Positions 5,659-41,261 of a stretch of 42,846 bases of DNA are shown here, one piece after another; within the stretch, counting starts at the first letter, position 1; the number at the start of each line of letters is the position of its first letter. The stretch is from Ereboglobus sp. (lineage in GTDB: Bacteria > Verrucomicrobiota > Verrucomicrobiia > Opitutales > Opitutaceae), in NCBI GenBank assembly GCA_029974595.1, contig JARKRC010000002.1:1-42846 (forward strand), given 5' to 3'. The notes under the pieces were generated by a model that did not search any database, had not been told where the DNA came from, and saw nothing but the letters and a program-made list of their open reading frames with translations. The position numbers and the translations under genes are program-made.

Positions 5659-5818
5659 GTGGCACGGGCATCTTGCCCGTGGGATTGGGTGGCACGGGCG
5701 CCTCGCCCGTGTGACGAGGCGCAGCCTCGCCTCTTTTGTAATTTGGGATTTGCCCTTTGGGATTTATTTGGGATTTGGAAATTGGGATTTGGGCACACGG
5801 GCAAGATGCCCGTGCCAC
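5659..5818. repeat. Cluster of three 23-nt GTGGCACGGGC hairpins
   Basis: Three copies of a 23-nt palindrome lie at 5659-5681, 5689-5711 and, inverted, 5796-5818. Each has a 7-bp stem CACGGGC/GCCCGTG with a variable 5-nt loop and a GTG or CAC edge. The outermost two face each other, so the block can fold into one large hairpin. Between them lie tandem GGGATTTG-like words. Further copies are at 11503-11525, 11541-11563 and 24820-24842. This is a REP-like dispersed family. Confidence 0.85.
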
Positions 5819-10584: not shown

Positions 10585-11367
10585 TTACGCGGCGAGCAAT
10601 CCGGCGTTGCGCAGCGAATCGCGCAGCACTTGCGCGATGTGCATCGTTTTCACCGGACGCCCGCCCTTGGCGGCGAGACCGCCGAGGCTCATGAGGCAGC
10701 TCTGGTCGATGGAAACAACCGCGTCGGGCTTTCCCGCGAGGAGGTGGTCGAGCTTCAACTCGCCCATCGACTTGGAAATGTGCGGAAACGTCACGCTGAA
10801 GGTGCCGCCGAAACCGCAGCATTGCTCCGGTTCGTCGAAATCGAGCACGCGCAACCCCTCGATGGAGCGCAGCAGCGCGAGGGCGGCATCGCCCGTCGCC
10901 GTGCCGCGCGAGTGGCACGAGCGGTGAAACACAATCGTCGCCTCAAAACGCCCCGGCCACCTGGCGATGCCGAGTCCGTTGACAATATAGTCGGCAAGTT
11001 CCCACGTGCGACCGGCGAGTTTTTGCGCGGCGGGAAGCGTCTGCGGCTCCTTTTCGAAGGCGAGCAACGCGCCGTGGCGAATCATCGCGGCGCAAGACGC
11101 GGAAGGGATGATGAGCGGATCGTCGCCGGTGAACGTAGCGAACACATGGCGAAGGACTTTGCGCGACGCCGTCCAGTCGCCGCTGTTGAACGCGGGCTGG
11201 CCGCAACAGGTCTGCGCCTCGGGAAAATCAATCGCGCAACCGAGATGCTCCAGGATTTCGACCGTGGACGCGGCGACATCATCAAACAGCGCGTCGCAAA
11301 GGCAGGTCGCCATGAGCTGGATGTTTTTCCCGTTCGGGCGGACGGAGCGTTCGTGGTCGTTGGTCAT
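10585..11367 (-). CDS. lutA: LutA, lactate utilization iron-sulfur oxidoreductase subunit
   Basis: A 260-residue protein of the cysteine-rich CCG family. Two CCG motifs are present: TCCGQPAFNSG in the first half and QCCGFGGTFSV in the second, each with an additional upstream cysteine (ATCLCD; HRSCH). These bind an unusual iron-sulfur cluster. Together with LutB and LutC it forms the LutABC enzyme that oxidises L-lactate to pyruvate in the cytoplasm. In most genomes lutABC is one operon. Here lutA stands alone, while lutB and lutC lie about 7 kb away on the other strand. A 23-bp sequence ahead of the start (11400-11422) is identical to one ahead of lutB, which supports common control. Confidence 0.92.
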   Translation of the reverse strand: MTNDHERSVRPNGKNIQLMATCLCDALFDDVAASTVEILEHLGCAIDFPEAQTCCGQPAFNSGDWTASRKVLRHVFATFTGDDPLIIPSASCAAMIRHGALLAFEKEPQTLPAAQKLAGRTWELADYIVNGLGIARWPGRFEATIVFHRSCHSRGTATGDAALALLRSIEGLRVLDFDEPEQCCGFGGTFSVTFPHISKSMGELKLDHLLAGKPDAVVSIDQSCLMSLGGLAAKGGRPVKTMHIAQVLRDSLRNAGLLAA

Positions 11368-11399: not shown

Positions 11400-11422
11400 T
11401 TTATGATCGAAGTCGCGCAAAT
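11400..11422 (-). promoter_or_regulatory. Shared lut upstream element, lutA copy
   Basis: On the minus strand this 23-nt stretch starts ATTTGCGCGACTTCG and ends in ATCATAAA. It is identical to 18526-18548 before lutB. It ends 32 nt before the lutA ATG, against 29 nt before lutB. The ATCATAAA end could be a promoter -10 region; the rest may be an operator. Confidence 0.65.
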
Positions 11423-11502
11423 AAAAAAGCGCGCCGATTTTGGAGCCCTCTGTTTTGAACCGCAGATGGACACAGATCAACGCAGATGCCGGAGCGGATC
11501 GA

Positions 11503-11563
11503 GTGGCACGGGCTGCCAGCCCGTGAGGTTTTCGGCTCGGGTGGCACGGGCATCCTGCCCGTG
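11503..11563. repeat. Two GTGGCACGGGC hairpins
   Basis: Two direct copies of the 23-nt dispersed palindrome (11503-11525, loop TGCCA; 11541-11563, loop ATCCT). The link between them (GAGGTTTTCGGCTCGG) resembles the flank of the copy inside the activase gene at 24820, so the repeated unit is probably longer than the hairpin. Confidence 0.8.
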
Positions 11564-11621
11564 TCTCCGGGCTGTCTTTCAACCGCGAATGGACGCGAAA
11601 GGAAGCTGAGCCTAACTGCTA

Positions 11622-11655
11622 AAATTAACAAAAGGCGACCTCGGGCGTCGCCTTT
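11622..11655 (-). terminator. Terminator-like hairpin after the low-GC gene
   Basis: A 9-bp stem (11631-11639 with 11647-11655, core AGGCGAC) has a 7-nt loop. On the minus strand it is followed by the T-rich run TTGTTAATTTTA. It lies about 140 nt beyond the stop of the minus-strand gene ending at 11794. Confidence 0.55.
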
Positions 11656-11793
11656 CCTTGGTTGCCGCTTGTTTGTTCGGGTTATTGGCTCTTTCTCGTA
11701 ATCCAATCTGATTCAAATAAGAGTGAGCGTGAATTATCCGCGTAGGCGTCAGTGTCAATTCTCATACGGAATAAAAACAAATAATCGTCCATC

Positions 11794-12189
11794 TTATCCT
11801 CCCATTTTTATCCAAAATCCTTGCAAGAGAGGTTCAAGAGGAACCGTAATCTTCCGACAAGATTTAGGAGCGATCGACCTTTCCTTCAATGGCAGCTTTA
11901 GAAACCCTGATTCTCGCATACGCGGTGACCAATATCCATATGGATAACGCGAGCTGTCTATTGATACAATTTGATTATTTTTATTTTTAACCTTAACAGA
12001 AAATCCCGCTGGAATTCCATAGTTCATGGAGGAGTCAACATACATTGGAAGTTTCGTATCGGAAAGATTCTCAACTGTAATCACCACCTTTTTTTTGACA
12101 ATCGCAAAGTCAACTTTATATTGAGCATCGTTGCACATGCACACTGTGCAAAGTGCCGTTAATGTGATTATATAAAATAGCATCCCCAT
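11794..12189 (-). CDS. Low-GC secreted hypothetical protein
   Basis: A protein of about 131 residues with no family I recognise. The chosen start, MGMLFYIITLTALCTVCMC, makes a short signal peptide, possibly a lipoprotein signal because of the cysteines. A start at 12264 would add 25 residues. The mature part (VKKKVVITVENLSDTKLPMY onward) reads like a small beta-sandwich with alternating hydrophobic strands. Its base composition is clearly richer in A and T than its neighbours and it is flanked by repeats on both sides, which suggests recent gain. The reading frame continues upstream to 12633 through palindromic repeats, but that part is not believable protein. Confidence 0.5.
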   Translation of the reverse strand: MGMLFYIITLTALCTVCMCNDAQYKVDFAIVKKKVVITVENLSDTKLPMYVDSSMNYGIPAGFSVKVKNKNNQIVSIDSSRYPYGYWSPRMRESGFLKLPLKERSIAPKSCRKITVPLEPLLQGFWIKMGG

Positions 12190-12648
12190 GATTTTCTGAG
12201 TCCCTCTTCCTTTGAGGGTCGCAAAAGAGGACAATCCGACATATATTGAATTTTTATTGCTCATAAGAGTTGCTGGAGAGGCGGCATTGTTTGTCGGCTT
12301 TTGGGAGGAGGGTTTGTTTTTCAAACTGCATCCCGTTATGCCGCAAGATGCAACATCGGATTTTGCGTGGATTCCCGGCTGTTCGCGCAATGATCCGGCT
12401 TCTGTTTCTGTAACGTCCGGCCTTGGGTTTGACTCCGGGGAGCGCACGCGTCTCGCGTGCCGCGTTGGGCGTCCCGCCCAACGCTTTCGGGGAGGACGGG
12501 AGCGCGCCTGCCATGCGGGCTTCGGCGGGACGCCAAAGCCAACACGCGGGACGCGTGTGCTCCCCCGAACCACCCAATCCGTTGCACATGCCCGCGTCTT
12601 GAAAGCGGCGAGGATCGCCGCACTCCAAATCACTCCAAACCCGCATCC
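12190..12648. repeat. Cluster of GC-rich palindromes
   Basis: No gene is convincing. Between about 12437 and 12580 several inverted repeats are stacked: CACGCGTCTCGCGTG, GTTGGGCGTCCCGCCCAAC, a GGCTTCGGC/GCCAAAGCC pair and CACGCGGGACGCGTG. The palindrome GCGGCGAGGATCGCCGC follows at about 12603-12619. These look like a compound dispersed intergenic element. The first part, 12190-12264, is AT-rich and may hold the start of the preceding gene. Confidence 0.7.
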
Positions 12649-13251
12649 TCACATTTCGAACACCCGCGCGCCCTCGTCCGGCGTGAGTTCGCGCCATTCG
12701 CCGGGGGCGAGCGCGAGGGCGTCGAGGCGAAGCGCGCCGAGGCGCACGCGGATCAGGCGCAGCGTGGGATGTCCCACGGCGGCGGTCATGCGGCGCACCT
12801 GACGGTTTTTGCCCTCGGCGAGTTCGAGCGAGAGCCAGGCTGCGGGGATATTTTTTCGGACGCGGATGGGCGGGTCGCGCGGCGGGATGCGCGTGATTTC
12901 GGGCGAGGCGGGGTCGGGCAGCGCGGCGCGGCACGGCAGCGTGCGATGCGCGCCGATGGCAATGCCGCCGCGCGCGAGTCGCGCGAGCGCGTCGGGCGCG
13001 GGGATGTTTTCGACCTGCGCATAATACTCGCGGGCGTGGCCGTGCGCCGGGTTGAGCAGGCGGTTCACAAGCGCGCGCTCGTCGGAAAGCAGTAGCAGGC
13101 CCTCGCTGTCGGCGTCGAGGCGTCCGACCGGGTAAACGTGCGACGGCAGCGGCGCGGGCGCGACGATCTCCGCGAGCGTGCGCCAGCGCGAGCCGGGCTC
13201 CGGCGTGAATTGCGAGAGCATGCCGTAGGGCTTGTTGAGCGCGATGAGCAT
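12649..13251 (-). CDS. rRNA large-subunit pseudouridine synthase (RluE/RsuA family)
   Basis: A 200-residue RNA-modifying enzyme that converts uridine to pseudouridine in ribosomal RNA. The N-terminal LIALNKPYGMLSQFT is the family start. GRLDADSEGLLLLSDERAL contains the catalytic aspartate, and EGKNRQVRRMTAAVGHPTLRLIRVRLG is the conserved C-terminal motif. The small size and lack of an S4 domain fit the RluE branch, which modifies one site of 23S rRNA in Escherichia coli. I chose the start at 13251; the frame stays open to 13341, which would leave only 16 nt to the divergent aminotransferase gene. The gene is convergent with nothing and ends beside the palindrome cluster. Confidence 0.88.
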   Translation of the reverse strand: MLIALNKPYGMLSQFTPEPGSRWRTLAEIVAPAPLPSHVYPVGRLDADSEGLLLLSDERALVNRLLNPAHGHAREYYAQVENIPAPDALARLARGGIAIGAHRTLPCRAALPDPASPEITRIPPRDPPIRVRKNIPAAWLSLELAEGKNRQVRRMTAAVGHPTLRLIRVRLGALRLDALALAPGEWRELTPDEGARVFEM

Positions 13252-13357
13252 GACGTGGCGCGAACATTGAAAAATCCCGCCCGCAAGGCGAGCGCGCAAA
13301 GAGCGCTCTTGCCGTTTCGGGGCGGGGCCGTTCTGTTTCATTGCTGTTTTTCCTCAC

Positions 13358-14452
13358 ATGAAAGTCCCGTTCCTCGATCTCTCACTGCAACACAAGGCGA
13401 TCCGCGAAGAAGCCCTCGCGGCGCTGGCGGCCACGTATGACGCGACGCGCTTCTGCCTCGGGAAGGACGTGGAGGACTTCGAGAAAAACTTTTCCGCCGC
13501 GCTCGGCTATCCGCGCGCGCTCGGCATGAACAGCGGTACCTCGCCGCTGCTCGCCGCCTCGCATTGTGGCGGCTTCGGGCCGGGCGACGAGGTCATCGTG
13601 CCGACGTTCACCTTCATCTCGTCGGCGTGGGGCGTCAGCCACGCGGGCGCGACACCGCGATTCGCCGACATCGAGGAGGGCACGTTTAATCTCGACCCGG
13701 AAAAAATCGAAGCAGCGATCACCCCAAAAACAAAGGGCATCGTCGTCGTGCACCTCTTCGGCCAGCCCGCGCGCATGGACGAGATCATGGCGGTCGCGAA
13801 AAAGCACAACCTGTTCGTCGTCGAGGATTGCGCGCAGGCCGTCGGCGCGCGCTACAAGGGCGCGCCCGTCGGCGTAATCGGCGACGCGGGCACGTTCAGT
13901 TTTTATCCGACAAAAAACCTCGGCGGCTGCGGCGAGGGCGGCGCGTTCGTGTCGCGGCGCGACGACGTGTTTGAAAACGCGCGCCTCCTGCGCGTGCACG
14001 GCTCGGCCCGCCGCTATTATCACGACATCGTCGGTTTCAATTTCCGCATGGACGGCTTTCAGGGCGCGCTGCTCAACATAAAACTCCCCCGCCTCGCCGC
14101 ATGGAACGCCCGCCGCCAGGCAATCGCGCAACGCTACATCGCCGAGATCAAGCTCGCCGACGTGATCCTGCCGCAGACGGTCGATTACGGCGCGAGCGTG
14201 TATCACCAGTTCACCATCCGCCACCCGCGCCGCGACGCGCTGCGCGAGCATCTCGCGAAGCGCGAGGTCGGCACCGACCTCATCTACCCGGTCGCCCTGC
14301 ACCAGCAGGCTTGCTACGCGCACCTCGGACAGAAGGCCGGCTCGCTGCCCGTCGCCGAAAAAGCCAGCGCCACCTGCGTGAGCCTGCCGATCTTCCCCGA
14401 ACTCACCGACGAGCAGGTCGGGCACGTCATCGAAAGCGTGAACGCATTCTGA
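13358..14452 (+). CDS. DegT/DnrJ/EryC1/StrS family aminotransferase
   Basis: A 364-residue PLP enzyme that usually aminates keto-sugars made as nucleotide sugars for surface polysaccharides. MKVPFLDLSLQHKAI is the typical start. The NSGTSPLLAA stretch binds the cofactor phosphate, VEDCAQAVGARY carries the aspartate contacting the PLP nitrogen, and SFYPTKNLGGCGEGG carries the lysine that forms the Schiff base. The C-terminal region (TDLIYPVALHQQACY) is also of this family. It is divergent from the pseudouridine synthase gene, and the next plus-strand genes are trpF and a Dus gene. No other sugar-nucleotide genes are nearby, so the substrate is unknown. Confidence 0.92.
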   Translation: MKVPFLDLSLQHKAIREEALAALAATYDATRFCLGKDVEDFEKNFSAALGYPRALGMNSGTSPLLAASHCGGFGPGDEVIVPTFTFISSAWGVSHAGATPRFADIEEGTFNLDPEKIEAAITPKTKGIVVVHLFGQPARMDEIMAVAKKHNLFVVEDCAQAVGARYKGAPVGVIGDAGTFSFYPTKNLGGCGEGGAFVSRRDDVFENARLLRVHGSARRYYHDIVGFNFRMDGFQGALLNIKLPRLAAWNARRQAIAQRYIAEIKLADVILPQTVDYGASVYHQFTIRHPRRDALREHLAKREVGTDLIYPVALHQQACYAHLGQKAGSLPVAEKASATCVSLPIFPELTDEQVGHVIESVNAF

Positions 14453-14512
14453 CAAGTCCGATTTCCCAACGCGCCCGCGCGCAACCCGACACCGCCACGA
14501 TTTTCCTCCCAC

Positions 14513-15163
14513 ATGATAAACGGCATACAGGTCAAAATCTGCGGCATCACATCGCTCGTTGATGCGGAGAAGGCCGATCGCATCGGGGCCGATTATCTGG
14601 GCTTCATCCTGTGGCCGAAATCGCCGCGACACGTCTCGCTGGAAACCTTTCGCGGCATCGCGGCGCTCCTGCCCTTCCGCAAAAAAGTCGCCGTCATGGT
14701 GGAGCCGTCCGGGACGGAATTGCGCGACGCGCTCGCGACGGGATTTTCGCTGGTGCAGATTCATTTCAAGCACACCACGCCGCTTGAGCAAATCCGGCAA
14801 TGGTCGGCCATCGTCGGCGCGCGGCACCTCTGGCTCGCCCCGAAACTGCCGCCCGAGTCCGGCGTGCCGGAGGAATGGCTGCGGCTGGCCGACGGATTTT
14901 TGCTGGATACGTTTCACGCAGGCGCGGACAGCTACGGCGGCACCGGCGAAACCGGCGACTGGGAAAAGTTCGCCCGCCACCGCGCCGCGCATCCGGACAA
15001 CCTGTGGGTTCTCGCCGGCGGACTCAACCCCGACAACATCGGCGAGGCCGTGAACAAAAGCACCGCGCGTTTCGTCGATGTGAACAGCGGCGTCGAGGCC
15101 TCCCCCGGCGTCAAGGACGCCGCCAAACTCGAAGCGCTCGCCCGCGCGTTGAACCAGCGCTGA
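14513..15163 (+). CDS. trpF: Phosphoribosylanthranilate isomerase
   Basis: A 216-residue TIM-barrel enzyme of tryptophan synthesis that isomerises N-(5-phosphoribosyl)anthranilate. The start VKICGITSLVDAEKA has the catalytic cysteine. GADYLGFILWPKSPRHVS, VQIHF, FLLDTF (general acid aspartate) and the phosphate-binding LAGGLNPDNIGEAV and VDVNSGVEASPGVKD follow in the normal order. Length is normal. Other trp genes are absent from the window. It is followed after 21 nt by the Dus gene in the same direction, so the two are probably co-transcribed. Confidence 0.95.
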   Translation: MINGIQVKICGITSLVDAEKADRIGADYLGFILWPKSPRHVSLETFRGIAALLPFRKKVAVMVEPSGTELRDALATGFSLVQIHFKHTTPLEQIRQWSAIVGARHLWLAPKLPPESGVPEEWLRLADGFLLDTFHAGADSYGGTGETGDWEKFARHRAAHPDNLWVLAGGLNPDNIGEAVNKSTARFVDVNSGVEASPGVKDAAKLEALARALNQR

Positions 15164-15184
15164 CCCCGGCCCAACCCGCCAGCC

Positions 15185-16303
15185 ATGCGCATCGGTCCCG
15201 TCCAGCTTGACTCGCCGCTTTTTCTGTCGCCGCTCGCCGGCTACACAAACCTGCCCATGCGCCTGACGCTCCGCGAACTCGGCGGACTCGGCTGGGCGAC
15301 GACCGATCTCGTCAACGCCCGCTCGCTCATCGAGCGCAACGCGAAGGCGCTCCAGCTCATCCGCTCCGCGCCCGCCGACCGTCCGATGGCTATCCAGCTT
15401 TTCGGCTCCGACCCCGCCGAGATGCGCGACGCCGCGATGATCTGCGAGCAGGCCGGCGCGGCATCGATCGACATCAACATGGGCTGCCCCGTGCCCAAGG
15501 TCGTCAAGGTCGGCGGCGGCTCCGCGATGATGACCGAGCTTGGCAAAACCGCGCAACTCGCGCGCGGCATGGTCGGAGCCGTGAAAATCCCCGTGACCGC
15601 AAAAATGCGCCTCGGCTGGGACGACGCCAACATCACCGCGCCCGACCTCGCCCGCGTGCTCGAAGACGCCGGCATCGCGGCCATTTTTGTGCATGGCCGC
15701 ACGCGCGCGCAGGCGTTTTCCGGCACCGTCAGCCTCGTCGGAATCCGCGCCGTCGCGCAGGCCGTGAAGTCCATCCCCGTGATCGGCAACGGCGACGTGA
15801 CCACGCCCGAATCCGCGCTGATGATGATCCGCGAAACCGGCTGCGCGGGCGTGAGCATCGGGCGCGGCGCGTTTTACGACCCGTGGATTTTCAAGCGCAC
15901 CGCGCACCTGCTGCGCACGGGCGAACTGCTGCCCGAGCCGTCGTTTCCCGAGCGCGTGCGCGTGATGTCGCGCCATCTCGACCTGATGGTCGAGGTGTTT
16001 GGCGACGAACTCGGCTGCCGCATGTTCCGCAAGATGGCCCCGTGGTATGCGCGCCGTTTCGGCCCGTCGAAGGATTTCAAGCAGCGTATCGTAAAAATGA
16101 ATACACGCGCCGATTTCCACGCCGCGCTCGAAGCCTACCGCGCGTGGCGCGCGCCGTTTTGCGAAAACGGAAACCCCGACGCCGGCCTCCTGCCGCGCTT
16201 CCGTCCCGCCCCGCTCGTGGCCTCCTTCATGCGCTCCGCCGGCGAAGCCGCCTCCCCCGACGAATCCATCCCCGTCCCCAAAGGCCCGATCGATTTCTGG
16301 TGA
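15185..16303 (+). CDS. tRNA-dihydrouridine synthase (DusB-like)
   Basis: A 372-residue flavoenzyme that reduces uridines to dihydrouridine in tRNA. LSPLAGYTNLPMRLTLRELG is the FMN-binding start. IDINMGCPVPKVVKVGGGSAMM carries the catalytic cysteine. VTAKMRLGWDD, VHGRTRAQAFSG and VIGNGDVTTPESA complete the barrel, and VSIGRGAFYDPWIF follows. The C-terminal helical domain ends in an unusual proline- and serine-rich tail (AASPDESIPVPKGPIDFW). The fold is certain; the DusB assignment rests on overall resemblance. It converges on the DUF4143 ATPase gene with 34 nt between the stops. Confidence 0.92.
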   Translation: MRIGPVQLDSPLFLSPLAGYTNLPMRLTLRELGGLGWATTDLVNARSLIERNAKALQLIRSAPADRPMAIQLFGSDPAEMRDAAMICEQAGAASIDINMGCPVPKVVKVGGGSAMMTELGKTAQLARGMVGAVKIPVTAKMRLGWDDANITAPDLARVLEDAGIAAIFVHGRTRAQAFSGTVSLVGIRAVAQAVKSIPVIGNGDVTTPESALMMIRETGCAGVSIGRGAFYDPWIFKRTAHLLRTGELLPEPSFPERVRVMSRHLDLMVEVFGDELGCRMFRKMAPWYARRFGPSKDFKQRIVKMNTRADFHAALEAYRAWRAPFCENGNPDAGLLPRFRPAPLVASFMRSAGEAASPDESIPVPKGPIDFW

Positions 16304-16337
16304 TTCCGGGATTTCGTCCAGCAGCGACAAAACTCCG

Positions 16338-17474
16338 CTACTTTGACACAAGGCAGCTCTCCAGCGACCGCACTTGGACTTTTTCGCCCAGCTCGTAAGA
16401 GCGCGTTCCGGGATAAACGACCCACAATTCGTCCAACGATAAATCCGACAGCGCCACATTCATCGAACGCGTCAATGTGGGTGCATCCGCGCGCTTGAAC
16501 TCGACGCCGATACGTCGCCCGCCTTTCAGCATCAGCAAATCCAACTCGCTGCCACTATGGACCGCATAAAAATACGCCTCGTCCGGTTCAAGCGCATGCA
16601 ACACCGACTCAAGCGCAAACCCCTCCCACGACGCGCCCATCTTCGGATGAACGAGCAGCTCTGTCGGCGAACGCACGCCCAACAAGGCATGCAGTAGCCC
16701 GCTGTCACGGAAATACAACTTCGGAGCCTTCACCAAACGCTTCCCCAAGTTCGCATGCCACGGCAAAAGACGCCTGACCAGAAACGTCTGCTCCAGCGCA
16801 TCCAGATAACTGCGCGCCGTATTTGGAGCAATGCCAAGTGAAGCTGCGATTTCCGCGCCGTTCCAAATCTGCCCATGATAATGCGCCAGCATGCTCCAGA
16901 AACGCCCCATCACAGCGGGCGGCATGCCGAAACCCAGCGCCGCCAAATCACGCTCCAGAAACGTGCGGATAAAATTTTTGCGCCACGCCAGGCTGTCCTC
17001 ATCGCTCGCCGCGAGATAAGAACGGGGAAACCCTCCGCGCTGCCAAAGCAAGTCCTTGGTTTCAACCGGCAGCTCAACAAGGCTGAATCCCTGCATCTCG
17101 ATAATCTCAATCCGCCCGGCCAGCGACTCCGACGACTGCCTGCCAAGTTCGGGCGACGCGCTGCCAAGAATCAAGAACGTGGCCGGCGCCCCCGCACGAT
17201 CAGCCAAAACCCGCAAAACGGGAAACAATTTCGGCTGACGTTGCGCCTCATCGACAACGACAAGGCCGCGCAACCCCTGCAACGCGCTCATCGGATTTTC
17301 AAAAAGCGCAGCAACGACTGGATCTTCCAAATCAAAATAGTTCCCGTGCCTCGGATCTATAAACTCTCTGGCCAACGTTGTCTTCCCGCATTGACGCGGC
17401 CCAACCAAAGCAACAATAGGAGCCCGCCGAAGGGCGTTTTGCACCAACCCGATATATTTGCCTCGTCTTATCAC
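16338..17474 (-). CDS. DUF4143 AAA-type ATPase
   Basis: A 378-residue protein of the common bacterial ATPase family with an N-terminal P-loop domain and a C-terminal DUF4143 domain. VALVGPRQCGKTTLAREF is the Walker A motif (around residues 23-31), GLVVVDEAQRQPKLFPVL is Walker B, and FLILGSASPEL is sensor 1. A winged-helix-like middle (GAEIAASLGIAPNTARSYLDALEQTFLV) is followed by a nuclease-like C-terminal part (LYFRDSGLLHALLGV; SELDLLMLKGGRRIGVEFKR) that resembles an endonuclease fold. The role of the family is unknown; such genes are often found as lone, mobile-looking units. Transcribed alone. Confidence 0.88.
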   Translation of the reverse strand: MIRRGKYIGLVQNALRRAPIVALVGPRQCGKTTLAREFIDPRHGNYFDLEDPVVAALFENPMSALQGLRGLVVVDEAQRQPKLFPVLRVLADRAGAPATFLILGSASPELGRQSSESLAGRIEIIEMQGFSLVELPVETKDLLWQRGGFPRSYLAASDEDSLAWRKNFIRTFLERDLAALGFGMPPAVMGRFWSMLAHYHGQIWNGAEIAASLGIAPNTARSYLDALEQTFLVRRLLPWHANLGKRLVKAPKLYFRDSGLLHALLGVRSPTELLVHPKMGASWEGFALESVLHALEPDEAYFYAVHSGSELDLLMLKGGRRIGVEFKRADAPTLTRSMNVALSDLSLDELWVVYPGTRSYELGEKVQVRSLESCLVSK

Positions 17475-17691
17475 ACTTGAAAAAATGCAATCACGTTGCC
17501 GTTTTTCAAGTCAAATAATGCCGAGAGTAGCAGCGACGATCCCCGTCGCTTTTGCGCAGAAACTCTTTGCGCAATGCCAACTTGGATCTTTCAAACCCCT
17601 GCAAATCGACACATCCTGACAGGCAACATACCACCGCCGCGGCCCACAACCTCCGGCCTCTTCACTCAACGCCTTCCATGCGCTCCCAATC

Positions 17692-18477
17692 ATGCACACC
17701 TATAAACTCCGCAGTATTTTGATTCCGGCGCTCCTGATCGGATTTGCCTTTGCCGGATGCTCGAAGAACACAAATCTCTCCGTTCAAAAAAACCTGTATT
17801 GGACGCCGCCAGAAGATGAATTGATCATTGAGGGAGGCGCAGCGCCTTTGATGATTCGGCTTTCGAAATATCCCGTCGTTTATATTTCGCACATTCCGAA
17901 GAACCAGACGCTGACAAAGATTGAGGAAGAGGAAGGCGTCATCGTCATGCCATCGGGAATCGAAGACATTCTGCCACGCATCCAAGCCTTTAAACAGGAG
18001 CAAGAGGCATTGGGAAATCCGGCTGTAATCATGATCGGAGGCGATGATTACGCGCCCTGCGGCGCCATCATCAAGGCAATCGAATACGCCAAACAAGCGC
18101 GCATCGAATCGATCTTTTTCGAGACGTGGTCACAGCACCCATCCGGCATGGCCGTTAGAAGGACTGTGGGATGCAGCACTCCACCTCTATACTTTGAGTT
18201 CCCCAATGGCATTACGCCACCCCCGACTCTGACCCAAAACACCATCACCCTCTCAATATCAGGCGATGAAAAAATCTCGTGGGATGGTTCGATCGTCACA
18301 CGAGACCAACTGGTTAAAAAAATGCATGACCGTGCCATTGCGATCGGCCTGGAAAATGCGTTTTCGGTAGTTCTCGTTGATCCCGATGCATCCTTTCCGC
18401 CTTTGCGTGATGTGCTCGACCAACTGCGCCGCGCAGGCACTTTCAGAGTGATGATAAGCCCGCTCAAATCGCCATGA
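17692..18477 (+). CDS. Lipoprotein with two TolR/ExbD-like segments
   Basis: A 261-residue exported protein. The signal peptide ends in a lipobox (FAGC, cysteine at about residue 23), so it is probably lipid-anchored. The C-terminal part (TITLSISGDEKISWDGSIV, then an alpha helix, then VVLVDPDASFPPLRDVLDQL and RRAGTFRVMI) follows the strand-helix order of the periplasmic domain of TolR/ExbD. The middle region (residues about 50-135, with PAVIMIGGDDYAPCGAIIKA) appears to repeat the same pattern. The true ExbD/TolR membrane helix is missing. There is no ExbB/TolQ gene nearby. The assignment is by pattern only. Its stop is about 50 nt before the shared lut element. Confidence 0.6.
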   Translation: MHTYKLRSILIPALLIGFAFAGCSKNTNLSVQKNLYWTPPEDELIIEGGAAPLMIRLSKYPVVYISHIPKNQTLTKIEEEEGVIVMPSGIEDILPRIQAFKQEQEALGNPAVIMIGGDDYAPCGAIIKAIEYAKQARIESIFFETWSQHPSGMAVRRTVGCSTPPLYFEFPNGITPPPTLTQNTITLSISGDEKISWDGSIVTRDQLVKKMHDRAIAIGLENAFSVVLVDPDASFPPLRDVLDQLRRAGTFRVMISPLKSP

Positions 18478-18525
18478 GCCGCTACGAACTTCTCCCGCCA
18501 AATCTGTCTCCCCGCCTGATTTTCC

Positions 18526-18548
18526 ATTTGCGCGACTTCGATCATAAA
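18526..18548 (+). promoter_or_regulatory. Shared lut upstream element, lutB copy
   Basis: This 23-nt stretch is identical to the minus-strand element at 11400-11422 before lutA. It ends 29 nt before the lutB ATG. Apart from an AT-rich edge, the flanking bases differ between the two sites, which suggests that the motif itself is selected. Confidence 0.65.
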
Positions 18549-18577: not shown

Positions 18578-19987
18578 ATGAAGCACCAGCAAATCGACCA
18601 ATACGCGGCCTCGCTTCCCCCGGACAAACGCGCCTCCGTTTACGGCGGCACCAAGTCCGGCTACGATGCGCGTTTGCGCGCCCTCAACACCAGCTACACC
18701 GCCCCCGACAACCTCCGCCGGCTCGCGGGGCGGATCAAGCAGCACGCCATCGAAAACCTCGACACCTACCTGCCGCAGGTCGAGGCGCGGATGCTCGCCA
18801 ACGGCGTGAAAGTCCACTGGGCGCTCGACGGCGACGAGGCCTGCGGACACGTCCACCGCATCATGGAGGAGCGCGGCGCGAAAAAAATGGTCAAAGCCAA
18901 GACCATGGTGAGCGAGGAAATCCACCTCGCCAACTATCTTGAAAAACGCGGCATGGAGTGCCTCGAAACCGACCTCGGCGAGTTCATCATCCAGATCGAC
19001 CACGATCATCCGTCGCACATCGTAAAACCCATCATCCACAAAAATCGCCGCGAAATCGCCGCGTCGTTTGAGCGCGAGGGACTCGGCGCGTATAACGACG
19101 ACCCCGAGGTCATCACGGCGCGCGCGCGCCAGTTTTTGCGCCACAAATACCTTGCCGCGGATGTCGGCCTCTCCGGCGCGAATTTCGTCTCGGCGGAAAG
19201 CGGGCGCATCGTGCTCGTGACGAACGAGGGCAACTCGCGCTTTTCGATTGCGGCCACGAAAGTTCACATCGCGCTCGTGGGCATCGAAAAAATCGTGCCG
19301 CGCGACCGCGATCTCGGACTGCTCCTGAACCTGCTCGCGCGCTCGGCGACGGGACAGCAGCTCACGTCCTACACGGAGTTCATCAGCGGCCCGCGCACCG
19401 CAAACCAGCCCGACGGGCCGGAGGAGATGCACGTCATCTTTGTGGACAACGGACGCACCCGCGTGCTCGCCGACGACTGCCGCCCGATTTTGCGGTGCAT
19501 CCGTTGCAGCGCGTGCCTGAACGTGTGCCCGGTTTACCGCCAGACGAGCGGCCACGCCTATCGCGCCGTGTATCCCGGCCCGGTCGGCGCGGTGCTCTCG
19601 CCGCTGCTCGCCGGGGACAAGTTCCCCGAAATGGCCGATCTCCCGAAAGCCTCGACGCTCTGCGGCGCGTGCAACGAAGTGTGCCCGGTGGACATCCCGA
19701 TTCCCGACCTCCTGCTGCGCTTGCGCGACCGTGGAAAACAGGTTGGCAGCAAAGCCGCCGCAGCCGCGACGCCGCCGATGGGCGCGTTCGGCACGCTGGC
19801 GGCCAGCCCCGCGCTCTGGAAAGTCGTGATGAAAACCGGCGGCCTCTCCGCGCTCTACCCGACCTTCCTCATGCCCGCCGCCGGCAAGACCTGGGTGCGC
19901 ACGCGCGGCATGCCGAAATGGCGCGGCGGAAAGTTCCGCGCGTGGATGAAAGACCGCAGGGCAAAAACGAAGCCGCTGGAAAAATGA
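18578..19987 (+). CDS. lutB: LutB, lactate utilization iron-sulfur protein
   Basis: A 469-residue subunit of the LutABC lactate oxidation complex. The N-terminal two thirds form a LUD domain (HRIMEERGAKKMVKAKTMV; VGLSGANFVSAESGRIVLVTNEGNSR). Two ferredoxin-type 4Fe-4S motifs follow: CIRCSACLNVCPVY at about residues 306-319 and CGACNEVCPVDIPIPDLL around 365. The C-terminus is basic and proline-rich (TWVRTRGMPKWRGGKFRAW). The length is normal. lutC follows after 43 nt in the same direction, while lutA is absent from this operon and lies about 7 kb upstream on the other strand. Confidence 0.95.
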   Translation: MKHQQIDQYAASLPPDKRASVYGGTKSGYDARLRALNTSYTAPDNLRRLAGRIKQHAIENLDTYLPQVEARMLANGVKVHWALDGDEACGHVHRIMEERGAKKMVKAKTMVSEEIHLANYLEKRGMECLETDLGEFIIQIDHDHPSHIVKPIIHKNRREIAASFEREGLGAYNDDPEVITARARQFLRHKYLAADVGLSGANFVSAESGRIVLVTNEGNSRFSIAATKVHIALVGIEKIVPRDRDLGLLLNLLARSATGQQLTSYTEFISGPRTANQPDGPEEMHVIFVDNGRTRVLADDCRPILRCIRCSACLNVCPVYRQTSGHAYRAVYPGPVGAVLSPLLAGDKFPEMADLPKASTLCGACNEVCPVDIPIPDLLLRLRDRGKQVGSKAAAAATPPMGAFGTLAASPALWKVVMKTGGLSALYPTFLMPAAGKTWVRTRGMPKWRGGKFRAWMKDRRAKTKPLEK

Positions 19988-20030: not shown

Positions 20031-20651
20031 ATGGGCACTTCCCGCGAAACCATTCTCAAACGCACCGCCGACGCGCTCGCGCCGCTCAAGGAGCGCGCCG
20101 CGTATCCGGACTTTAATGACAGCGTCGCCGTGATGCCGGCGCTCGACCGCGCGGGCGACTTGTGGGCGATTTTTTCCGAACGCGCAAAGCTCGTGCACGG
20201 CACGCCGCTGTCCGGCTCGCCCGCCGTGCTCGCCAACTGGCTGCGCGAAAAAAATCACGCGCGCGGCTACTGCGACCCCGCGCTCCTGCCGCAGTTCGGG
20301 GAGGCGCTCGCGGCGGCGGGTTGCGAGGTCGAAACGGCATTCGATCGCGCAAGGGTTGACGACTACCAGTTCGGCATCACGCGCGCGGAGGCCGCGATTG
20401 CGGAAACGGGCACGCTCGTCCTCACGGACGGCTCGACATCGAGCCGCCTCGCCGCGCTCGCGCCGTGGACGCATGTGGCCGTCCTGAAGCGCGAGCAGAT
20501 TTTCGCCGATGTCGCCACCGCCGTCGCCAGCCTGCCCGCCGACCCGAACGTGATCTGGTGCACCGGTCCGTCGCGCACGGCGGACGTCGAGGGAATCTTG
20601 ATCGAAGGCGTCCATGGTCCCGGCGTGCAGGTGGCGTTTTTGCTGGAGTGA
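20031..20651 (+). CDS. lutC: LutC, lactate utilization LUD-domain protein
   Basis: A 206-residue LUD-domain protein, the third component of the LutABC L-lactate oxidation complex. Visible family stretches are FGITRAEAAIAETGTLVLT (about residues 112-130), LAPWTHVAVLKREQIFADV, and the C-terminal VIWCTGPSRTADVEGILIEGVHGPG. The length is normal. It follows lutB closely and is followed by an intrinsic terminator, so lutBC form a two-gene operon. Confidence 0.93.
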   Translation: MGTSRETILKRTADALAPLKERAAYPDFNDSVAVMPALDRAGDLWAIFSERAKLVHGTPLSGSPAVLANWLREKNHARGYCDPALLPQFGEALAAAGCEVETAFDRARVDDYQFGITRAEAAIAETGTLVLTDGSTSSRLAALAPWTHVAVLKREQIFADVATAVASLPADPNVIWCTGPSRTADVEGILIEGVHGPGVQVAFLLE

Positions 20652-22024: not shown

Positions 22025-22735
22025 TCAAATGAAGCCGCAATCGATCTCTGAGGCCCATGCGTCTTCGCTTTTGCGGACTTTGGGCGGCGGTTGCGCAACC
22101 AACGCGGATTCGGCGGATGCGACCTGTGTGCGGACACGCCCGATGTGCCGCGTCGTAATCACGACAAAGCGAATCGCGAGCGCGGGAGTCTTGCGCCAAT
22201 TTTCCAAAAGCTGGCAAAGCTCACGAGTCAGCCGCGCGAGGAGGTCGTCAGACAATGAAAAAGTCCACATGGTTTTGACGAGGGTTTCGACAGCCGTCCG
22301 CGAGACGCCGTCCTCATAGGTGGAGCGGGCCGTCGCGAAAAGCATGGATTGCAACCTGCGGAAGCGCTTCGGCATCGAGGGCCGCGGGTGCAGGAAACGA
22401 AGCTCCGGAAGGCGCAGGTTGATCACGCCGGCGGTGGTGCGAAGGCTGCACTTCCGCCAATTCACAACGATGTTGGTGCAAACATTGGCGCGGACCGAAA
22501 GTTGCGCATCAAGCTCCAGGCCGCAGAGGTGATTGGCTTCGGCTGCGAGCAAATAGTCGCAAATGAGTTTGACCCCCGAGAGCACAATTCCGATTTGCTG
22601 CGCATCGGGTTGCTGCAACGCATCCTTGGTCACCGGTAATTGCGCGGACATGCCCCCCTCGGAATAGCCCGGGGCGCAATCTTGGACGCAAGACAGGCCG
22701 GAAGGCGGAGGCAGAGGTTGCGGTGAGGCACTCAT
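22025..22735 (-). CDS. IS256-type transposase N-terminal fragment
   Basis: A 236-residue ORF; a start at 22651 (MSAQLPVTKDALQQ) is about as likely. The middle (about residues 50-170) follows the N-terminal half of IS256/mutator transposases: LLAAEANHLCGLELDAQLS, then VINLRLPELRFLHP, then LFATARSTYEDGVSRTAVETLVKT and LLARLTRELCQLLENWR. The DDE catalytic domain that should follow is missing. Instead there is about 50 residues of unrelated sequence ending at the stop. It is therefore either a broken insertion-sequence remnant or a kept DNA-binding domain. No terminal inverted repeats were found around it. Confidence 0.6.
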   Translation of the reverse strand: MSASPQPLPPPSGLSCVQDCAPGYSEGGMSAQLPVTKDALQQPDAQQIGIVLSGVKLICDYLLAAEANHLCGLELDAQLSVRANVCTNIVVNWRKCSLRTTAGVINLRLPELRFLHPRPSMPKRFRRLQSMLFATARSTYEDGVSRTAVETLVKTMWTFSLSDDLLARLTRELCQLLENWRKTPALAIRFVVITTRHIGRVRTQVASAESALVAQPPPKVRKSEDAWASEIDCGFI

Positions 22736-23532: not shown

Positions 23533-26500
23533 TTACGCCGGCGCAAGGGCCGGCTTTGCGCCCATCCGGTTGCGGGCGTTTTGCAGCATGAAGTGCAGGC
23601 GGTTCATCATGTTTGCCTCGCTCGCGCCGCTGTCGAGGTCGAGGAAGAGCAGGCTCATGTCGGGATACAAATCGCGGATGCGTTTTTCGATGCCCTTGGA
23701 CACGATGTGATTCGCGATGCAGCCAAAGGGCTGCAGGCTGACGGCGTTCATCACGCCGCGTTCGGCGAATCCGGCGAGTTCGGCGGGAATGAGCCAGCCT
23801 TCGCCATACTGGCCGGCGATGTTGAGAATGCGCGAGGCCGACTCGGCCTGCTCGTAGGGATTGTGCGCGGCGTGGAAATACGCAAAGCCCGACGCGGAGC
23901 GGTCGAATTTTTTCTCGATGCGGCGGATGATCGCATACGTGGCGGTGTCCAGGAACGGAATCAGGGGCTTGTTCTTGAGATGCCGCGCAATGTTGGTGCG
24001 GCGATTCGGGAATTCCTGAAGGAAGAACGCCGCCACGGAGGGCACGACGACCTCGGCGCCCTGATCGATGAGCCACTGGACGACGTTCTTGTTTCCGATG
24101 GCATTGTATTTCACGTAGATTTCGCCGACGACGCCTATGCGCGGGACGCGACGGTCGTGGTCGCAGAGGACGTTGAAATCGGTCGCGGCCTCGGCGAGCA
24201 GGCGGTGGAGCGCGGCGACATCGCGCGCGACGACGCACGCGGCGCCGGAGCGGATGTAGCCATCGCGAAGCCGCGCCGCCGCGCCGCGTTCGCGCTCGCG
24301 GGGCGCGGTGGCGTAATACATCTGCGCGATGCGATCGGCATAAAGCACGGCCCCGATGATTTCGCGCAGGTTGCCAAGGAATTTCAATTTGAAGCCGGGT
24401 TGCGTGTTCGAGATGGATTTTCCGGATGTGGCGAGCGAGACGACGGGAATGTCGCCGTGGCCCGAGGCGATCATCGCCTTTTTTATGAGCGCGATGTAGT
24501 TCGACGCGCGGCATTGCCCGCCGGTCTGCGTGATGCCGATGGCGATTTCGCCGGGCTTGTATTTGCCGCTGTTGAGCGCGCGCACGATGTCGCCGACGAC
24601 GAGCGTGGCCGGATAACACACCTCGTTGTTCGCGTATTTCAGGCCGTAATCGATCGAGGCGGCGTCGCTCGGCGGAAGCACTTCGCATTCGTAGCCCATG
24701 AGGCGCAGGAGCGCGGGAATAAAAGGCGAATACACTTCCGAGAAAAACGGCAGGAGAATGGTGCGGTGGCGATCCGCCTCGGTAAAAATCGGCGTGGTCG
24801 GAACCGAAACGTGGATCGGGTGGCACGGGCTTCCAGCCCGTGAAGTTTTTGACTGCGCCTGAGGCTTCAGCAAAAAGTTTTTCTCTCCCGCTTTCAGCGG
24901 AATGAGCACGGGCGGAACGTCAGTCTCACCCGCGCCATCCGATCCGCAGCCTCCGCAATCATCCATCGGGGGCGGCTCGGTGCGCGGACGGTAGGCGAGG
25001 CTTTCGACGAGCGAGCGGATGCGCAGGCGCAGGGAACCGAGGTTGTTGATGTCGTCGATCTTGAGAATCGTGTGGCTCTTGCCGCCGCGCCGGAGGATGT
25101 CGCCCGCCTCGTCGATGATGAACGCGTCGGGACCGCAGCCGAACGAGGTGAGCTGCACGAAATGCACATGCGCCGGCGCCCCGGCGACCCAGCGGGCGGC
25201 CTTGAGGATGCGGTTGGTGTACGCCCATTGGCGCACGCTGCCGGGGCCGCCGGCGTCGGTATCGTCGTCGAGACGCACAATGTCCTCGCTGATCACATCG
25301 ACGCCGAAGCCGGCGATCATGTCGGCGACCTTGTGCTGGATGAGCGGATCGGCGTGGTAGGGACGCCCGGCAAGGAGGATGGTGACGCGATTTTCGGCGG
25401 CGGCGCGCGCGGCGATAGCCCGGGCTTTTTCGGCGAGGAGGCGCGCATGCCCGGCTTGCGCGGCGAGCGCGGCGGCAAAGGCGCGCTCGAAATCGCGGGG
25501 CGCGACGCGGAGCGTTTTCACGAGGTAGTCGCGGCAGGCGCGTTCGAGGAGCCTGGTGTCGTGAAACGTGATCGTGGGCGCGTCGAGCGGGATGCCATGC
25601 CTGTCCTGGGGATTGATGGCGCTGCGGATGACATCGGAGTAGCCGGTGACGATGGGGCAGTTGTAGGTGTTGACGGCGTTTTTGTCCTCGCGCTCCTCAT
25701 AGACGACGAAGGGCATGAGGATGCGGTCAACCTTGCGCGCGATGAGATCGTAGATGTGGCCGTGGACGAGTTTTGCGGGAAAGCAGATGTTGTCGGACAT
25801 CACGGTGGCGACGCCTTTGCCGTAAAGCTCGAACGTCGAGCGCGACGAGAGCGTGACTTTCAGGCCGGCGTGCGTGAGGAGCGCGTGCCAGAAGGGATAG
25901 TTTTCATAATAATTCAGCACGCGCGGAATGCCGATGATGAGCGGCTTCGCCGGCGATGGCGTTTGCGAAACCGGCGCGGTTCGTCCGAAGAGCTTGCTGT
26001 ATTTGAAGGTGTAGAAGTTGTCGCCTTTGCGCGCGTCGGCACCGCGGTTGGTGAAGATTTTTTCGCACTTGTTGCCCGAATAAAACGTGTTCGCGTTCGC
26101 GAAGGTGTATTTGCGGACGGAGCACTTGTTCTCGCAACCGGGGCAAATGCTTTCGTCGGTCGCGCAGGAGGCGGGTTGCGCAAGCGAGGAAAGAAGCACC
26201 CCGCCGACCTCTGGAGCGCGGGATTGGGGCGTCGCGCGCGACGCGTGGATCGCGGCTCCGTAGGCGCCCATGAGCTCGGGCATGTCGGCAAAGGCGACGT
26301 CGCGCCCGGTGAGGTGTTCGAGCGCGCGGACGACGGCGTGGTTTCGCATGGTGCCGCCCTGGACGACGATGTGCGTGCCGAGGTCGCCGGCGTTTTTCAA
26401 TTTGAGAACCTTGTAGAGGCAGTTCTTCACGACCGAATACGCAAGGCCCGCGGCGATGTCCGGGAGCGTGGAGCCTTCGCGCAGGGACTGTTTCACCTTG

Positions 26501-40226: not shown

Positions 40227-41261
40227 TTGAGCCAGCTCCTCCAAAACACCCTCTACCTTCTCACGCCAAAACTCTCCGTCACGCGTGATGGACTTGCGCT
40301 GCGCATCGAGCAGGACCGCCAGCTCAAACTCTCGCTCCCCATCCACAACTGCGACTCGATCCTTGTCTTCGGCCCCGACATTTACGTCTCACCCGCAGCC
40401 ATGCGCCTTTGCTGGGAAAACGGCGCCAGCATCTGCTATTTCACCGAATGGGGCCGGCTCGAAGCCCGAGTCGAAGGCGTTCCTCAAGGCTCCGTGTATT
40501 TGCGCCGCGCGCAACACGCCACGGCATCCGACCCCGACGGCTCCACGGCGCTTGCCCGCGCCTTTATCGCCGGAAAAATCCACAACACCCGCTGGCTCCT
40601 CAACCGCAGCGCTCGCGATGCCGCCGGTGAAAACGACGCCATGCCCTTACGCCGTGCATCCGAAGCCCTTGCGCACCTCCTCCGCCAGCTTCCAGCCGCA
40701 CCCGACACCGACACCGCGCGCGGCATCGAAGGCCAGGCCGCCGCACTCCATTTCGACGTATTCAAAAATCACATACGTCCGCAACTCCGCGACAGCTTTC
40801 CCGTCGACGGACGCAACCGCCGTCCGCCTCGCGACGCCGTCAATTGCCTCCTCTCCTTCCTCTACGCGCTCCTGCGCCACGATTGTGTCAGCGCGCTCGC
40901 TGGTGTCGGACTCGATCCCTTTGCCGGATACCTTCACGCCGACCGCTCCGGGCGCGAGTCACTCGCGCTCGACCTCATGGAAGAATTCCGCCCTTGGGCT
41001 GAGCGCCTCGCCATTACACTCATCAACCGCGCAGAACTCACCGCAAAGGACTTTTCCCATCGCGAAGGCGGCGCAGTTGAGCTGACCGACAATGCGCGCA
41101 AAACGATCGTCGCCGCTTATCAGGCCAGGAAACGCGAAGAATCGGTGCATCCGCTCTACAAGGAAAAAGTCCGCAACGGACAACTCCCCCACATACAAGC
41201 CCGATTGCTCGCACGCGCATTGCGCGAAAACGCCGATTACGTTCCGCATCTGTTTGTCTGA
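40227..41261 (+). CDS. cas1: Cas1 integrase
   Basis: A 344-residue integrase that with Cas2 inserts new spacers. It starts with TTG at 40227 in a frame beginning MSQLLQNTLYLLTP, as other Cas1 proteins of this type do. Metal ligands are present: E168 in GIEGQAAALHF, H237 in GYLHADRSGRESL, and D249 or E252 in LALDLMEEF. The sequence GYLHADRSGRESLALDLMEEFRP is typical of type I-C Cas1. There is no good ribosome binding site ahead of the TTG; the gap from cas4 is 39 nt. Confidence 0.95.
   Translation: MSQLLQNTLYLLTPKLSVTRDGLALRIEQDRQLKLSLPIHNCDSILVFGPDIYVSPAAMRLCWENGASICYFTEWGRLEARVEGVPQGSVYLRRAQHATASDPDGSTALARAFIAGKIHNTRWLLNRSARDAAGENDAMPLRRASEALAHLLRQLPAAPDTDTARGIEGQAAALHFDVFKNHIRPQLRDSFPVDGRNRRPPRDAVNCLLSFLYALLRHDCVSALAGVGLDPFAGYLHADRSGRESLALDLMEEFRPWAERLAITLINRAELTAKDFSHREGGAVELTDNARKTIVAAYQARKREESVHPLYKEKVRNGQLPHIQARLLARALRENADYVPHLFV

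Follow-up and report, generated by a model that had tools for sequence, protein, structure and literature searches.

The lut genes and the 23-bp element

The window analysed here is a stretch of 42,846 nt of contig JARKRC010000002.1 from Ereboglobus sp. (Opitutaceae, Verrucomicrobiota; assembly GCA_029974595.1). The source is a draft genome of 4,074,106 bases in 77 contigs, 96.4% complete, and is denoted G000 below. The window carries the genes lutA, lutB and lutC for lactate oxidation, divided into two units, and a 23-bp element located before each unit:

10585..11367, (−) strand: lutA, 260 aa, open reading frame; CCG domains (PF02754) in two stretches
11400..11422, (−) strand: putative operator copy 1 (23-mer) before lutA, containing a 20-bp inverted-repeat core and the −10-like CATAAA
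11423..11428, (−) strand: T-rich hexamer 17 nt before CATAAA, possible −35 of lutA
18520..18525, (+) strand: TTTTCC 17 nt before CATAAA, possible −35 of lutB
18526..18548, (+) strand: putative operator copy 2, the identical 23-mer, before lutB
18578..19987, (+) strand: lutB, 469 aa, open reading frame; NCBIfam TIGR00273, 455.3 bits (cut-off 444.8)
20031..20651, (+) strand: lutC, 206 aa, open reading frame; LUD domain (PF02589)

The LutB protein has a LUD domain, an iron-sulphur part and the LutB C-terminus; with the two CCG domains of LutA and the LUD domain of LutC, the three proteins and their domains are those of the LutABC (LldEFG) lactate oxidation operon. The genes do not form one operon, since lutA lies 7.2 kb from lutBC on the other strand, in divergent orientation, much as a first-pass annotation made from the sequence had described (about 7 kb). 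The copies of the 23-mer noted there are indeed identical (11400–11422 on the minus strand and 18526–18548 on the plus strand), and the gap to the ATG is 32 nt for lutA (start at 11367) and 29 nt for lutB (start at 18578). The neighbouring base differs on either side of both copies, so 23 is the full length of the identity.

With up to 3 mismatches allowed, the window contains the 23-mer only at these two places. No match appeared in 100 dinucleotide-preserving shuffles of the window, which rules out chance identity, as the annotation had argued. The annotation would have been undermined by many copies at unrelated places. A search of the whole draft genome (with a 22-mer) gave two exact copies and one further copy, with 3 mismatches, ∼98 nt before rhaA; an ordinary dispersed repeat is thereby ruled out.

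The core of the element is a 20-bp imperfect inverted repeat, whose symmetrised form is TATGATCGA-NN-TCGATCATA. In 11 lut and rha sites the two arms agree on average at 5.6 of 10 positions, versus 2.5 in shuffled letters. The agreement in 15 sites before deoR genes is 6.9 of 10 (2.8 shuffled), a score that is biased because these sites were chosen with a symmetrised matrix; the lut and rha score is less so. Direct repeats with a period of 5–12 reach just 0.10–0.35 at these sites. CATAAA or a similar hexamer stands at the 3′ end, 17 nt after a T-rich hexamer, in most of the lut and rha sites compared; thus the operator probably overlaps the promoter.

Split and intact lut genes in relatives

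The family sample comprised 150 genomes, four of them from the genus Ereboglobus (G000, G002, G051 and G080). In all four, lutA is apart from lutBC and a site precedes each half. In G051 a single contig carries both halves, separated by 1.27 Mb; in G002 and G080 they are on different contigs. Exact identity of the copies, on which the first-pass annotation had laid weight, is true of G000 and is not needed in its sisters: among 22 bases, the lutA and lutB sites differ at 0 in G000, 1 in G080, 2 in G002 and 3 in G051. At position 6 both operators have T in G002 and G051 and both have G in G000 and G080. In G080 the match between the two copies covers 33 of 35 bases when the T-rich end and the four bases that follow are counted in. 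Comparison of G000, G080 and G051 shows 19–21 of 22 bases conserved in the site and 4–11 of 23 in the 23 nt before the T-rich end, a difference that speaks for the site as a functional element; low conservation upstream of the lutA site is expected, as lutA has moved.

A lutA match lies at most 1.5 kb upstream, in the same orientation, in 76 of the 80 LutB loci taken from GTDB genomes. The four exceptions are L302 and L303 (both Ereboglobus), L370, where the contig ends before lutB, and L381, with no match in 3.4 kb. Relatives with an intact lutABC and the site before lutA, which had been suggested as a check, were found in G046, G100 and L306; in L306 an orthologue of the DeoR-family regulator described below lies one gene upstream of the site and lutABC. 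The four split rows of a LutB tree with 17 rows form one clade (support 100/100), so that a single origin of the split is sufficient, though not proven.

Sites before rhamnose genes and other genes

A scan of the 150 genomes for the element (≤3 mismatches) detected 17 places in 10 genomes. Twelve of them are before lutA, lutB or rhaA. One, in G013, precedes the PduL gene (PF06130), whose cluster also has shell and aldehyde dehydrogenase genes. The other four (G080:C117, G146, G130 and G142, all with 3 mismatches) showed no such gene and look like chance matches. The product of rhaA in G000 is L-rhamnose isomerase by both Pfam and NCBIfam. The site stands before rhaA in G000, G002, G051, G046, G077 and G100; rhaA was found in three of the four Ereboglobus genomes, in each case with the site.

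A pattern fitted to the Ereboglobus and deoR-promoter sites has four matches without mismatch in G000 (lutA, lutB, rhaA and deoR) and six more with 2 mismatches; the reversed control has none. Because the pattern was fitted, the company of genes counts here and not the number of matches. A looser pattern with 2 mismatches, run on 12 genomes, gave at least 20–73 matches per genome, exceeding its reversed control; that control was free of CG dinucleotides and these counts were not used.

Genes of rhamnose breakdown are common at lut loci. A rhaB-like kinase was found in 60 of the 80 lut loci compared (tblastn, E ≤1e-20), for a rhaB query that is itself below the NCBIfam rhamnulokinase cut-off (354.9 versus 527.95), and any of rhaA, rhaB, rhaEW and class II aldolase in 62 at the same threshold. 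The rhaA gene directly precedes lutA in G010, G013, G016, G020 and G058. Gene order in G034 is site, rhaEW, class II aldolase, deoR, site and microcompartment genes, the second site preceding a cluster with BMC, EutN/CcmL, acetate kinase and aldehyde dehydrogenase domains; deoR adjoins rhaEW in G004 also. The Ereboglobus matches are at 59–60% for rhaB and 67–68% for class II aldolase, and RhaEW was not found in Ereboglobus, where partial short-chain dehydrogenase matches only were seen. A variant palindrome, TATGACGCAAGTCGCGCATA, stands 84 and 93 nt before the start of the rhaB match in L227/L271 (G046) and L226 (G077), both genomes of the G046 genus; no variant palindrome was found before rhaB of the four Ereboglobus genomes.

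A DeoR-family candidate regulator of the sites

The candidate regulator is encoded in the draft genome at the following place:

G000:C2:5308-6081: DeoR-family regulator gene (deoR); HTH_DeoR 52.1 bits and DeoRC 119.3 bits, above cut-offs

The protein reaches no NCBIfam equivalog cut-off. Matches to it (E ≤1e-40) are present in 31 of the 150 family genomes, itself included. All 22 close orthologues (56–100% identity) come from genomes with a rhaA match, versus 71 of 150 genomes overall. The stretch ATARRDLA, invariant in 8 aligned orthologues, is probably the recognition helix.

We trained a matrix exclusively on lut and rha sites, 10 of them from two genera, and used it to score 30 promoters belonging to genes of the regulator and its homologues, each against 200 shuffles. 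The palindrome scored above all 200 shuffles in 19 promoters, 19–46 nt before the start, and above 95% of shuffles in five more (G000, G002, G100, G003 and G024). Among 30 DeoR-family loci of 12 genomes, a score above 8 was reached by 5 of 7 orthologues (11.1–21.8) versus 2 of 23 others (10.3 and 10.7). A comparison of 60 lutA and rhaA loci gave a site (score >20) in 10 of the 20 loci from genomes with a close orthologue versus 2 of the 40 others, an association only, from which the relatedness of genomes is not removed. The two others with a site belong to G080 and G077, both of them incomplete (65% and 72%); the regulator is present in their congeners.

DeoR paralogues L182 (G051) and L181 (G002) have a related palindrome, TATGAGCGTTTGCGCGCATT or one base off, 81–82 nt before the estimated start; it is perhaps their own operator.

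Comparison with known systems

Operators of the GlpR type, known in the DeoR family, are palindromes of ∼20 bp with TATG...CATA ends. The Ereboglobus site is similar in length and ends, while the centre and the target genes differ; a text search of the literature for this likeness found nothing.

Rhamnose breakdown yields lactaldehyde and lactate, and oxidation of lactate by LutABC is established (PMC3870299). In the parts of PMC3870299 covered here, lldEFG is placed inside the RhaR regulons of some Actinomycetales and Rhodobacterales. The Ereboglobus system shares with these regulons a DeoR-family regulator, rha targets and, in some genomes, lldEFG; as in them, the regulator is linked to rha genes and common sites stand before these genes, with gaps. 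The split of lut in Ereboglobus is a difference. The main text of PMC3870299 makes no mention of Verrucomicrobia or Opitutus.

Several sources, each covered in part, bear on the setting. A DeoR-family regulator occurs in rhamnose/fucose microcompartment loci (PMC4207490), and lactate stands at the end of the rhamnose/fucose microcompartment route in Verrucomicrobiota (PMC8857213). PvmA of Planctopirus limnophila is a DeoR-family regulator that forms, with its promoter, a rhamnose-dependent pair (PMC11958385). In PvmA/PVM-type loci, as in G034, a DeoR-family regulator is beside class II aldolase and shell genes; in G000 the members are scattered. No operator is given in the covered text of PMC4207490 and PMC11958385, and in PMC11958385 there are no matches to ‘operator’, ‘palindrom’ or ‘binding site’. 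An operon with lutABC and a rhamnulokinase gene is reported from a Chthoniobacteraceae genome (PMC11596606), and a lut–rha link in Verrucomicrobiota is therefore not new; that operon is unsplit, and the covered text gives neither a regulator (no matches to DeoR) nor a site. Neither a DeoR operator nor a split lut in Verrucomicrobiota was found in the literature, searched mostly without opening full texts, or in the covered parts of PMC13274419 and the papers cited here. The kind of regulon is already known; the operator and the lut split themselves were not met in those parts of the literature.

Function of the element and alternative explanations

We consider it highly likely that the 23-bp element is a promoter-operator at which a rhamnose regulator of the DeoR type acts, and that each half of lut has had one since lutA parted from lutBC. 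The first-pass annotation had suggested a promoter-operator of lut: the look of one, before both halves, has been retained, whereas a site private to lut has not, because rhaA and a DeoR-type gene carry it too. The regulator encoded at G000:C2 would bind the 20-bp inverted repeat, which overlaps the −10-like hexamer, and carries in its own promoter a weaker palindrome of like form. Most likely it would repress, and L-rhamnose or an early intermediate would release it. Rhamnose would be broken down through lactaldehyde to lactate, which LutABC would oxidise to pyruvate, making lutABC a member of the rhamnose regulon in Ereboglobus.

In other bacteria lut genes are governed by regulators of the LutR/LldR kind (GntR family). 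If such a protein were at work here, the 23-mer would be a lactate-responsive site private to lut, and the identity of its copies in G000 agrees with this. A FadR-family regulator also lies beside lutABC in Endozoicomonas, according to the covered part of PMC6955870. We regard a private lactate site as improbable, given that the same site precedes rhaA and, in weaker form, the gene of the DeoR-type regulator, and given the position of the DeoR orthologue upstream of the site and lutABC of L306. Presence of the site before rhaA and the DeoR-type gene makes rhamnose or an intermediate a more likely inducer than lactate; judged from the sites and their genes, the inducing signal is probably the former. 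Still less credible is a promoter element whose identity reflects promoter conservation, with no operator in it. The −10-like CATAAA at its end and the T-rich hexamer 17 nt upstream, common to most lut and rha sites, would suit such an element, but the inverted-repeat agreement at twice the shuffled level and more would not, nor would the tie of the sites to one pathway and one candidate regulator, with four zero-mismatch sites in the genome.

A number of observations weigh against a rhamnose operator. The site in the deoR promoter of G000 is weak: its score of 11.1 is above 95% of shuffles and below the shuffle maximum of 13.4. Six of the 30 regulator and homologue promoters (G013, G058, G034, G010, G016 and G011) are without the palindrome. 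No site was found at 10 of the 20 lutA and rhaA loci of genomes with the regulator, namely rhaA of G004, G034, G115, G040 and G074 and lutA of G034, G013, G115, G040 and G074; the rha–lut stretch of G115 has no site even with ≤4 mismatches. In G000 itself, rhaB and class II aldolase have no site. Neither rhaA nor deoR was found in G080, and no deoR in G077. RhaR motifs, as given in the covered part of PMC3870299, are imperfect direct repeats of 10–11 bp, whereas the Ereboglobus site is an inverted repeat and does not show two imperfect repeats with that period. Finally, the conservation counts come from few, related genomes.

Some of the siteless lutA and rhaA genes sit inside longer clusters. 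The Geminisphaera group (G005 and G053) has no regulator orthologue at 1e-40, and no site with ≤4 mismatches in the lut and rha stretches compared. Since half of the regulator-bearing loci are siteless, the data support lut as a regulon member in Ereboglobus, the G046 genus and L306, and do not do so for the family. Within that scope it is well supported that the feature is real, an operator of a small rhamnose–lactate regulon on both halves of a split operon.

Origin of the split

The genes around the two halves bear on how they came apart:

12649..13341, (−) strand: pseudouridine synthase (PF00849), upstream of lutA; homologue in G051, 85% over 195 aa
14513..16303, (+) strand: two genes which we take to be, by sequence, trpF and dus homologues
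16338-17474, (−) strand: AAA/DUF4143 ATPase gene, between dus and lutB
17692-18477, (+) strand: open reading frame with an ExbD match, between dus and lutB

All four Ereboglobus genomes have a trpF homologue close to lutB. G080 has the operator and lutB immediately behind the dus homologue; the DUF4143 ATPase gene and the frame with the ExbD match are missing at the corresponding place there. The neighbourhoods of lutA are of three different kinds in the four genomes, with G002 like G051 in the stretches compared. A relic of lutA exists in G051 (C1:560400-560658; L382 8401-8659), with residues 10–28 and 200–260 and the interior missing. The gene immediately before it encodes a pseudouridine synthase with 85% identity to the window protein encoded upstream of lutA. 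The relic is about equally distant (81–83%) from all four Ereboglobus lutA genes; elsewhere in G051 there is an intact lutA with its operator. The position of the relic beside the pseudouridine synthase homologue indicates that lutA was copied in the clade and that the copy there decayed.

We propose that lutA parted from lutBC on the way to the Ereboglobus clade, each half coming to stand behind its own operator copy, and that selection may have kept both copies, so that the subunits could still be made in step. The lutBC site may derive from duplication, or from loss of lutA behind the promoter. Alternatively, lutBC may have acquired a de novo site once the two halves were apart, an origin compatible with a rhamnose operator on both halves. 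Sites are short, and rhaA bears closely similar ones behind unrelated flanks; yet the 33 of 35 bases common to the G080 copies extend beyond the site itself, and the G051 relic shows copying of lutA within the clade, so we think a de novo origin rather unlikely. That the two 23-mers are inverted repeats bounding a mobile segment of 7.1 kb is scarcely believable: the copies are inverted around the segment, but the sister genomes have no segment so flanked (given the distance in G051 and the separate contigs in G002 and G080), and in them each copy stays tied to a gene start.

A broader proposal, which as a whole we advance only tentatively and think may well fail in one part or another, is that Opitutaceae at large use an undescribed inverted-repeat operator, TATGATYGA-NN-TCRATCATA, which would belong to a PvmA-like DeoR regulator. 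It would link lactate oxidation to methylpentose breakdown in Ereboglobus, in the G046 genus and in the lineage of L306, with Lut as the last rhamnose step. In Ereboglobus, copying and decay would have spread lutA as a cassette of promoter and gene, the operator being retained in each working copy. Homogenisation within each genome may also have kept its lutA and lutB operators alike, in line with the base shared at position 6.

REP-like palindromes of the form GGCACGGGC..CC.GCCCGTG occur in the window at 5661-5816, 11505-11565 and 24822-24842. With ≤3 mismatches and both strands counted there are 8 matches (6 distinct places, two double-counted), versus 0.14 expected. Two of the palindromes lie upstream of the lutA operator, at a distance of 80–165 bp, and might favour rearrangement. 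Downstream of lutBC, 22025-22735 on the minus strand has a partial match to a Mutator-family transposase (PF00872, profile positions 29–174 of 379), and near the window end, 40227-41261 on the plus strand encodes Cas1 (PF01867).

Biological meaning

What appeared to be a curious repeat becomes a testable regulon with one regulator, four promoters and one sugar. The role of lutABC in Ereboglobus is likely the clearing of lactate made from rhamnose. The genus also presents an operon break in which both parts would have the same operator, with intact relatives and a decayed gene copy from which the steps may be traced.

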